Source: Sideroxydans sp. (lineage in GTDB: Bacteria; Pseudomonadota; Gammaproteobacteria; Burkholderiales; Gallionellaceae). From it: a stretch of 34,230 bases of DNA. A program made the translations under genes and the position numbers. The DNA lies in contig PNNY01000008.1 in assembly GCA_013824485.1 (NCBI GenBank), forward strand, positions 1 to 34,230, given 5' to 3'. Below the pieces are notes generated by a model. That model saw only the letters and a list, made by a program, of their open reading frames with translations. It was not told where the DNA came from and did not search any database. Positions 31,083 through 34,066 of this stretch are shown one piece after another (within the stretch, counting starts at the first letter, position 1; each line of letters starts with the position of its first letter).

Positions 31083-31406
31083 ATGACCTTCGTAGTGAGC
31101 GAGAATTGCATCAAATGCAAATACACCGACTGTGTCGAAGTGTGTCCGGTGGATTGTTTTCGCGAAGGGCCGAATTTCCTCGTCATCGATCCCGATGAAT
31201 GCATAGATTGTTCCCTCTGTGTCCCAGAATGCCCAGCCAATGCCATCTATGCTGCCGACGATGTGCCCGAGGCAGAGAGGCAGTTCATCGCCATCAATGC
31301 CGAGTTGGCGAAGCAGTGGAAGACCATCACCCAAAAGATAGACGCGCCAGCCGATGCGGATGAGTGGCGTGAAGTCAAAGCAAAGATACATCTGCTTGAG
31401 CGGTGA
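31083..31406 (+). CDS. fdxA: 7Fe ferredoxin (FdxA type)
   Basis: 107-residue ferredoxin with two cluster-binding motifs near the N-terminus. [18 protein letters not shown] fits the [3Fe-4S]-type site of Azotobacter FdI-like proteins (a CxxxxxxC gap replaces one cysteine of the standard site), and [12 protein letters not shown] is a canonical [4Fe-4S] motif. The acidic C-terminal tail (about 60-107) with [18 protein letters not shown] is typical of FdxA. ATG 31083 is chosen for the [12 protein letters not shown] start; an upstream TTG at 31062 is unlikely. The ribosome-binding site is poor. It overlaps the AddB-like gene by GTGA. Confidence 0.93.
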
Positions 31407-34066
31407 GTATCTCAACGAAATATTTTGATGCTGTCGCGCGGCGTATCCTTGCCGCGCATCCCGCGCCCGATCTGTGCGGCATCACCATCCTGTTGCCCAA
31501 CTTTCATGCGGCGCAACCGCTGGCGCAGGCGCTGATGCGCAACCACACATCAAGTCGGTTTCAATACGAAGGCGAGACAAGGCGGCAACGAGCGAGCGAC
31601 GCAGACAGTACAAGTAGTACGGCTAGGAGCGAGCGAGGAAGCCAACGCAGTATCGCCGATGCAGTGGAAGCGATATTGTTGCCGCAGATGGTCACGCTCA
31701 ATCAATGGGCGCAGACCATCGCGCTTGATGCGCCCATCGTCACCGATAGCCAACGCAGCGCATTGCTTTACGATGAGTTGAAGCACAGGCAATGGTTCGA
31801 TAACGCCGACCTGTGGAGCATGACGCAAGAGCTGCTCAAACTGTTCGACGAGCTCACCCATGCGATGGATGCCTTGCCTGACGATGAAGCTGCATTCATC
31901 GCGGCCGTGGAGCGCGCCTACCAAGCGCGGCAGAACATCACGTTGCAACTCGAAGCGCGCTTGGTGTTCGAGCTATGGCGCGCCATGCAAGCGGGGCAGG
32001 AGTTGGATGCGGCGCGCGCCTATCAGCAACGCTTGGCAAAACTGGCGGCACAAGCGCAGTCGCCACTGTATGTGTTGATGGCCTCTGAATGGGAGGCGGT
32101 AGAGAAACGCTTCCTCCAAGAATATGAACAGCGTGCGATGGTGAAGGTGTTCGATCTGCGCGAGATGGATGCGCAGCCTTCGGCACCACGTTTCTTCGCT
32201 GCAACCTCCCTCGAACAAGAAGCTCATGCTGCTGCCATGCAAGTGCGGCTGTGGTTGCAACAAGGCAAACGCGACATCGCCGTCGTGGCGCAAGACCGAG
32301 TGGCGGCACGGCGCATGCGTGCCTTGCTGGAGCGCGCCGAAGTGTTGGTGGCAGACGAGACGGGATGGACCTTCGCCACGCTCTCCGTCAGCACGGTGTT
32401 GGATCGTTGGCTCACCGCCTTGCAGAGCGATTTCTACCATCACGACTTGCTCGATCTACTCAAATCGCCATTCATCTTTGCCGATATGACTGCTGGCGAA
32501 CGGAAGTCTGCCGTGTATGAGTTGGAGAAACTGCTACGCAAGCATGGTGTGGTTTCTGATCTAGAGAAGTTCATCGATCTCGTGCCGCATGAGGTGGCTT
32601 TGCATGTGCCACTGGCGCGCTTGCGGCAGGCTGCCGCATTGTTGGATCAAAGCAAGAAACGCACACTCACCGAATGGCTCGCCGCTCTGCGCGAGAGTCT
32701 GAACGTATTGAGCATAGCCAAAGGTTTGCAACAAGACGATGCAGGTCAACAGTTGTTGAGTGCCTTGGAGACTTGGCAGCAAGAGTTGGCGAACGATGCT
32801 GGGCGTTACGCTTTTCATGAATGGCGACGCTGGTTGGCGCAGCAACTGGATGTGCAGACCTATCGCGACAGCAGCATCGATAGCCCTGTGCGTTTCACTC
32901 ATTTGGCCGCGACGCGTTGGCGGGCCTTCGATGCGGTGATCTTGCTAGGTTGCGACGCGGAACATCTGCCAAGTTCTGGTGATGGTGGCCGCTGGTTCAA
33001 TGACGCAGTGCGCTCGGTGTTGAATCTGCCCACACGTGCCACCCATGCCGCGCGGCAACGTGCCGACCTGATGGCCTTGCTGGCGCTGAACGACACCGTC
33101 CTAGTCACGTGGCAGAAAGACAAGAGTGGCGAAGCGCGTCTGTTGAGTCCTTTCTTGCAGATGCTGCGCGATGACTATGAGCAAGTGCATGGAGACGACC
33201 TCGCCGAGACTGAGCTGCTTTCCTATCTAACGGCCGAAGATGTTCGACACGTCTCGCTACCCCCATCAGCGCAACCTGTACCAAGTGTGGCGACAGATTC
33301 TGTGCCTATCAGCGTTTCCATCAGCGGCTACAACTCGTTGGTCGCCTGCCCCTATCAATTCTATGCGCGTCACATCTTGAGATTGAATGAACTCGACGAG
33401 GTGCAAGAAACCATCGAGAAGAGCGATTACGGCGAGCGCGTGCATGAAGTGTTGCAACGCTTCCATGAGTCTTATCCGCAGGTGAGCGGACAAGACTCGG
33501 CAAAGATGGAAGCCGCCTTGCGCGACATCAGCGAGCAGGTTTTCGCCGATCTGTTGGCGCAGGACTTCGCCGCGCGTGCATGGTTAGCGCGCTGGTATAA
33601 ATCATTGCCAGCCTATCTGGAATGGCAGCAAGAAGGCGAAGCCGAGGGCTGGCGCTATGCCGAAGCCGAGACGAAATTCGATTGGCCGCTGGAAGGCGTG
33701 AACCTGCGCGGACGTATCGACCGCTTGGATGTGCGTGGCGATGAGAAGCGTGTACTCGACTACAAGACGCAGAGCGACATCGTGCTACGCAACAAACTCA
33801 AAGAGCCGGGTGAAGACGTACAACTTGCCTGCTATGCCTACGCACACGAGGCAGCGGATGTCGCCTTCGTCAGCATCGATAGTGGCAAGGTGAAGTCGGT
33901 CGCGCCAAAAGAAGATGCATCGCAACTTGCGCAGCTCAATGTCGAGCGCCTAGAACAGGTGATGGGCGCGCTGCGTGACGGAGCAGGGTTGCCTGCGAAC
34001 GGCATCGATGCGGTGTGCGGCTATTGTGAAATTAGAGGCGTATGCCGGAAAGGGGAATGGACATGA
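31403..34066 (+). CDS. AddB-like PD-(D/E)XK exonuclease with Fe-S staple
   Basis: 887-residue protein of the AddB/RexB-like 'PD-(D/E)XK nuclease family', partner of an AddA-like helicase in double-strand-break end resection. The N-terminal helicase-like part lacks a Walker A motif. The C-terminal nuclease has GRIDRLD (Asp773) and VLDYKT (Asp786, Lys788). Cys649 (ACPYQFY) plus Cys872, Cys875 and Cys881 ([10 protein letters not shown]) match the four-cysteine Fe-S staple of AddB-type nucleases. The start is GTG 31403, overlapping fdxA; ATGA couples it to the next gene. Residues ~47-85 form a Ser/Arg/Glu/Asp-rich segment out of keeping with the rest and encoded by a repeat-like insertion (see repeat). 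The frame stays open, so the protein is probably still made. Confidence 0.88.
31556..31653. repeat. Repeat-like element inserted in frame in the AddB-like gene
   Basis: A ~100-base segment whose composition differs from the flanking coding DNA. It contains two direct copies of GAGCGAGCGA (31590-31599 and 31626-31635 approx.) either side of a core CAGACAGTACAAGTAGTACGG, with a small GTAC-aagta-GTAC hairpin and GGCT...AGCC pairing. From memory, the core resembles a dispersed Neisseria repeat (reverse strand reads GCCGTACTACTTGTACTGTC). It is translated as a low-complexity Ser/Arg/Glu stretch, residues ~52-84. Exact ends are uncertain. No other copy was seen in the window. Confidence 0.6.

Follow-up and report, generated by a model that had tools for sequence, protein, structure and literature searches.

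A short palindromic element lying in frame within an AddB-like gene of Sideroxydans sp. most probably belongs to a family of non-autonomous, hairpin-forming mobile elements with a Correia-type core, which regenerate a stop codon when inserted in one direction and add an in-frame linker when inserted in the other. The initial annotation of the window (the whole stretch of DNA analysed, 34,230 nt) had taken it for a dispersed palindromic element, a view borne out by the 131 copies that we recovered at 81 sites and by the folding of 53 aligned copies into one covarying hairpin. This hairpin, the association with stop codons and the restriction of the linker role to one orientation go beyond that annotation. 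Within the literature searched, a Correia-like family outside Neisseria, the strong regeneration of stop codons and the orientation logic seem to be new; Rickettsial palindromic elements and GTAG repeats are precedents.

The insertion in the AddB-like gene

The AddB-like gene extends over positions 31403..34066 of the forward strand, starts with GTG and encodes 887 amino acids, with no stop across the element. The protein, presumably an AddB in function, has a PDDEXK_1 match in its C-terminal part (E 4.4e-37); models of the AddB type and of related repair proteins find it too, with scores under their curated cut-offs. In all, 47 of 61 genomes (its own and relatives) contain a match to it. An in-frame gain of about 35-40 residues had been predicted, and 38 are found after residue 46, all of them absent from the 28 homologues that reach the site in the alignment (29 were fetched; one, L030, begins downstream of the insert site and is left out of this count). 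The three closest homologues, with 93-94% identity across the first 420 residues, possess in the DNA alignment 18 nt encoding VAKTPT or similar at the place where the window has 132 nt (31541..31672, forward strand), a net difference of 114 nt or 38 codons that keeps the frame. Since the covering homologues lack the insert and 132 nt stand against 18 nt, it is an in-frame insertion of the source lineage itself.

A profile built from 31 copies places the element at 31550..31678 on the forward strand (model positions 1-129, of which 5-127 are matched); its last ~6 nt are conserved gene sequence as well. The annotation had put the repeat in the right place and given it too short a range, and the features it had picked out are present: the direct repeat GAGCGAGCGA occurs twice within 31583-31644, and the core CAGACAGTACAAGTAGTACGG lies at 31602-31622. 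The inverted-repeat ends of this copy are imperfect and eroded. In the DNA alignment with the three closest relatives a target duplication is not readable, owing to the replacement of 18 nt of the former linker and the erosion of both ends of the element. A longer second copy (183 nt by the model) occupies the same addB site in G101, which belongs to another genus and in which the identity of the gene upstream of the insert was established by alignment.

The model that AlphaFold built for the first 420 residues of the AddB-like protein is weak (mean pLDDT 62.9). Blocks containing the bulk of the insert have scores of 53, 51, 33 and 39 and are flanked by better-modelled parts; the insert-free stretch 256-357 is of equally low confidence.

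The genome is a draft of 197 contigs and the window a single 34 kb contig, which might raise the suspicion of an artefact of assembly or chance. The probability of this is negligible: the reading frame is intact, copies occur in many independent assemblies, and the core pattern, allowing up to 3 mismatches, has a single match in the window but no match in 100 shuffled sequences.

Structure and length of the element

The profile search yielded 133 unique copies, two of which were dropped for their short flanks; clustering by flanks assigned the other 131 to the 81 sites. The loci behind this search were 30 derived from blastn, 30 derived from a pattern and 80 others, partly overlapping, and the copies are a sample from the listed matches, to which all counts of copies and sites refer.

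The terminal arms of the family are of the TTCCAATTCCATTTCG type. In the addB copy, which is absent from the 53-copy fold alignment, the eroded arms of the outer helix (the terminal inverted repeat) are placed by model position at 31553..31567 (left) and 31661..31675 (right). The conserved core GCAGACAGTACAAGTAGTACGG, common to the Neisseria repeats, lies at 31601..31622, and the apical hairpin GTAC-AAGTA-GTAC, taken from the fold of the aligned copies, at 31608..31620, all on the forward strand. The element is short, dispersed, bounded by inverted repeats and without a protein of its own, as MITEs are.

Among 129 near-complete copies, 86 measure 129 nt by the model, which counts one TTA-like triplet at either end, and 9 fall into the next class, of 189 nt; as incomplete matches were given the full model ends, small end deletions are invisible in these lengths. 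Overall, a short class of 129 nt and a long one of 183-195 nt can be distinguished, from which, after subtraction of one dinucleotide duplication and one flank base, we infer net insertions of 126 or 186 nt, each divisible by three. The annotation had suspected selection on the insertion length and on the lack of stops in addB. This was not supported: over all sites, genic or not, 82 of 101 site-by-length combinations are multiples of three (59 are exactly 129 nt), and frames +0, +1 and +2 are open in 42, 40 and 2 of 59 copies across the family. Judged from these sequences, length and open frames are traits of the family and not an adaptation of addB.

RNAalifold, given one copy for each of 52 sites and a further recG copy, predicts a single long stem of 33 pairs that takes in the entire element. 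In this alignment 96.3% of the cells are paired, compared to 89.5% in shuffles, and 27 of the 33 pairs show changes on both sides, compared to 12.1 in shuffles, none of 500 shuffles being as high. Versions of the hairpin slid along the alignment are 27-42% paired, a control that favours a structure derived from the same alignment. Between copies at the same site, 792 pair comparisons comprise 36 double compensatory changes, 60 one-sided changes, 64 pairs broken in one copy and 632 unchanged pairs, which suggests that co-evolution of the arms continues once a copy is in place, unless a site was hit twice. The asymmetry of G-U versus A-C pairs was not used to tell which strand folds; by eye it concerns mostly a few outer-arm columns. 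A search of 31400-31800 against Rfam, up to E 10, gave a single match, to asX3; it lies off the element and does not reach the gathering score of that family.

Covariation of the whole element over independent sites, like the 36 double compensatory changes between same-site copies, would also suit an element retained for its function as a structured RNA or a binding site (for mRNA stability, or control of the RNase III or IHF type), its location at gene ends then reflecting this function; for Correia repeats, the accessible parts of two publications describe roles in RNase III processing (PMC2649163, PMC10969869). The distribution of the element makes this explanation unlikely. The element is scattered, being present in 72 of the 158 source-family genomes, in 4 of 16 accC-prmA loci and in full in 3 of 30 recG loci, and its ten in-frame host genes are of diverse kinds. 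Moreover, template-switch correction of quasi-palindromes can keep pairing, and the pairs could persist in this way or through the need for a hairpin in transposition.

Dispersal and relationships

The source genome contains one further copy, on contig C11, with 88% identity over 106 bases; it lies directly 3' of the last sense codon of efp, at the efp stop codon. By blastn, with at most five candidates scored per genome, the element is present in at least 77 of the 158 genomes of the source family, in line with the further copies that the annotation had anticipated. A 25-base pattern with up to 3 mismatches matches in 72 of these genomes, with 1 to 11 copies in carriers, and its reversed control gave a single match across all rows. 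The plasmid collection searched held no match to the element. The variant ACAAGGCGATGACGAGCGAACGAGG is identical in nine genomes (G081, G086, G087, G102, G117, G125, G130, G138 and G139), and two of its copies, L162 and L165, are at one site; it may represent a single old inherited insertion.

The core GCAGACAGTRCANNTAGYRCGG, with at most one mismatch, is found in 46 of 399 genomes of the order, one of which has 168 copies. A scan with GCAGACAGTACANNTAGTACGGCNAGG gave at least 114 stretches. Among the 80 matches listed, Neisseria predominates, accompanied by Vogesella, Crenobacter, Conchiformibius, Cupriavidus, Accumulibacter, Avibacterium, Rappaport and Cardiobacterium and by unnamed Neisseriaceae, Nitrosomonadaceae and Burkholderiaceae. 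In Neisseria and these eight further named genera the core is exact among the matches listed, which agrees with the match to a Neisseria repeat proposed in the annotation. The idea of an element shared across Betaproteobacteria stands for several of their members, and the matches listed also include Avibacterium, Rappaport and Cardiobacterium, which we take to be Gammaproteobacteria.

The terminal arms are clade-specific among 23 loci examined, and for 20 loci from across the order the profile scores are weak (at most 24 bits). Such differences could mean that the Neisseria-like core is convergent and that the element families are unrelated. We consider this quite unlikely, given the exact core in Neisseria, Vogesella, Crenobacter, Cupriavidus, Accumulibacter, Nitrosomonadaceae and the three gammaproteobacterial genera among the matches listed. 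Exactly complementary arms also flank the core; they measure 8-24 nt in 20 of the 23 loci and 5-7 nt in the other 3, and two Nitrosomonadaceae copies join a Neisseria-type core to TTCCAATT-like arms as in the source family. In another family, locus L213 (G360:C11:56595-57057) shows five core-bearing units ~110 bp apart.

We also compared the element with the Correia repeat (CREE, NEMIS). The two share the core GCAGACAGTACANNTAGTACGG, inverted-repeat arms around the core, the lack of an encoded protein and the existence of short and long forms, and for Correia a TA or sometimes CA target (TG on the other strand) is reported in the accessible part of PMC2649163. However, the arms here are of the TTCCAATT type and those of Neisseria of the TATAGTGGATTAA type, and the element is therefore a relative of the Correia repeat, not the Correia repeat proper. 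It differs further in its inferred net length (~126 and ~186 bp, compared to 104-108 and 153-157 bp in the same source), in its 1 to 11 copies per carrier by the pattern, in stop-codon regeneration and in in-frame reading. The part of this 2009 source available gives the Correia repeat as known only from Neisseria (PMC2649163), and our literature search, of partial coverage, found no report of a Correia-type repeat outside this genus; the present data extend it to other Betaproteobacteria and some Gammaproteobacteria.

Insertions at stop codons

Coding frames were assigned with a hexamer model, which gave the true frame the top score for 229 of 245 test windows drawn from its own training loci. 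For 97 copies a minus-strand coding frame is open up to the right end of the element; the first stop lies at most 6 nt from this end in 71 (exactly there in 57) and inside the element in 20, and 6 frames pass through, some of them shadow frames. Counted by site, a stop codon coincides with the right end in 43 of 81 and with the left end in 5. These 48 of the 71 non-genic sites greatly exceed a null of 3.9% (TA+TG) or 9.1% (TA), the share of stop codons among such positions in the stop codons and non-coding DNA of the same loci, in a test that is rough for its use of our own gene calls and of loci chosen around the elements. The next gene on the same strand often begins shortly past the far end of the element. 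Locus L036, regarded by ORF length as an in-frame gene, was rejected as such: coding scores place the gene on the opposite strand, which makes it a stop site.

At the element end stands TAA or TGA (TAG once) as the stop triplet, with TTCC or a variant of it next. Of 41 right-end stop sites tested, 33 have triplets at the two ends that share their first two bases, TAA being paired mainly with TAA, TAG or TAT, and TGA with TGA or TGG. In a simple reading of these sequences, the end triplets would consist of a TR duplication plus an A supplied by the element, by which TAA, TAG and TGA targets would all yield a stop.

Some sites could be compared among relatives. At efp the stop codon is in the same place in 7 of 14 relatives examined (those whose C-terminus was recognised by the search); in the empty efp sites the duplication is unreadable, the downstream spacer being too diverged. 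Between accC and prmA, 23 loci were examined; of 16 for which the sequence was laid open, 4 carry the element, 3 another sequence and 9 are empty. Filled sites have one additional A compared to empty ones, and neither a 2-bp nor a 3-bp duplication is exact. In one of these loci (L358, G079) another palindrome-like sequence, GGGGCGCGATTCATCGCGCCCC, stands at the stop codon where relatives carry the element.

The 23 sites (of 81) that belong neither to the stop-codon nor to the in-gene class include copies just 5' of genes. At one of the unclassed sites (L079, L122, L140 and L168), some copies are flanked on either side by plus-strand coding sequence with a stop or a shift between, and some of the unclassed sites are possibly broken genes. 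In L040, L041 and L046 the element lies directly 5' of a gene whose product starts with MRIIT or similar, which we read as a putative second exonuclease III gene.

Palindromes near gene ends whose terminus often gives a TAG stop are known as GTAG/CGTC REP sequences, with copies in DNA-repair genes of several species and same-site copies in recB, according to the available part of PMC3733652. The element is like them in its location near gene ends, the stop supplied by its end, its copies in DNA-repair genes and its recurrent sites. However, their units measure 20-40 bp and give TAG, whereas the element measures ~126 bp and gives TAA or TGA. By description, not by sequence, it can also be likened to ERIC/RU of enterobacteria in size (~127 bp there), in the TA target, putative for our element, and in ORFs across the element; for ERIC/RU gene fusions are described as well, and in the RU-1 case given in the accessible text the insertion removed a stop codon, whereas the element here restores it (PMC2759123).

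Insertions within genes

Entry into coding regions and into other genes, as the annotation had proposed, is evident at 10 of the 81 sites, where 20 copies, all in plus orientation, are read through in frame. This count comprises 17 copies by the hexamer rule and three placed by hand (L055 and L136 in recG, L058 in cobD). The host genes are addB, aat, xthA, recG, prlC, comEC, copA and cobD and those for a P-type ATPase and an FAD-dependent protein. For every in-frame site, NCBIfam or Pfam models recognise a representative protein; in the FAD-dependent protein they match only 3' of the insert, its 5' side being assigned from the coding score. Gene-internal copies are mostly without the terminal TR triplets.

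The consensus peptides of the two open plus frames are hydrophilic (GRAVY -1.23 for +0 and -0.82 for +1). On the other strand, 5 of 59 copies have minus frame 1 open and 4 have minus frame 2 open. Minus frame 0 is internally open in 53 of 59, but starts with a stop triplet, and was rejected as a usable frame for this reason. The plus orientation of all gene copies is to be expected, only this orientation offering usable open frames.

In-frame palindromes within conserved genes are described for the Rickettsia palindromic elements (RPE; PMC10969869, available in part), to which the 10 in-frame sites can be likened by description, not by sequence; unlike RPE, the element inhabits other hosts and lies at a stop codon in 48 and within a gene in 10 of 81 sites. 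BRE, a dispersed repeat of Bordetella and other Betaproteobacteria, likewise has some copies in coding sequences and also forms tandem arrays, as stated in the accessible part of PMC3110155. Compared by description only, BRE might be a relative: both are small dispersed betaproteobacterial repeats with some copies in genes, but BRE measures ~90 bp. For Coxiella, MITE-derived segments are reported (PMC5896051, in the part available).

A possible mode of insertion

We propose that the element enters, presumably by transposition, where the target has TA or TG. The A at its end would, in one orientation, turn TR into TRA, so that insertion into a stop codon would restore the stop and leave the upstream protein unchanged. 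Copies in minus orientation would end translation and persist at stop codons. In plus orientation, with two of three frames open and 3n bases added, an insertion within a gene would add about 42 hydrophilic residues, and such copies would persist at tolerant linkers; harmful insertions would be purged by selection. The addB insertion would later have been trimmed to its net 38 residues and have survived in a linker. A broader reading is conceivable, if somewhat doubtful: both faces of the element might be gene-safe, insertion might be steered to TRA stop codons beyond selective filtering, and the family might form part of a wide, hairpin-bound Correia superfamily.

A search for two candidate mobilisers, Y1_Tnp and DDE_3, gave no mobiliser: neither domain has a match in the source genome, and further carriers are without one or the other (Y1_Tnp is absent from G088, G091 and G101, DDE_3 from G014, G020 and G030, among others). 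The many natural in-frame and stop-codon insertions, some of them with empty sites, provide material on target choice, linker tolerance and the mobiliser.

Other repeats in the same linkers

The addB, recG, xthA and aat sites are recurrent, which, together with the 183-nt copy at the addB site of G101, might speak for an insert that is adaptive in AddB and selected there as a useful linker. This is very unlikely, considering that all 28 homologues covering the site lack the insert, that its peptide is what the element encodes in general and that the recG linker takes unrelated repeats or nearly nothing. Thirty recG loci from the genus of G116 illustrate the latter. The linker is nearly empty in four (L395, L402, L408 and L411), it contains the full element in L384, L386 and L391 and a degraded one in L385 (blastn), and L392, L394, L398 and L399 have apparent remnants, judged by eye. 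The remaining loci have other in-frame sequences, many of which match other loci as dispersed repeats (blastn); across L384-L413 (genus g32) dispersed repeats of three or more further kinds occur in different species. Some of these, starting with GTAGGTCGGGC, look like GTAG repeats.

The single RecG linker and several places in AddB gather unrelated repeats, so that proteins of the source family seem to gain insertions from repeat-derived peptides on a regular basis. In the AddB homologues L013, L031, L032, L033 and L199, other repeat-like in-frame insertions are found near residues ~260 and ~593 of the window protein. The in-frame xthA copy of L169, 210 nt by the profile, includes an internal proline/glycine-rich stretch that resembles a nested repeat and is absent from the short copies at the xthA site.
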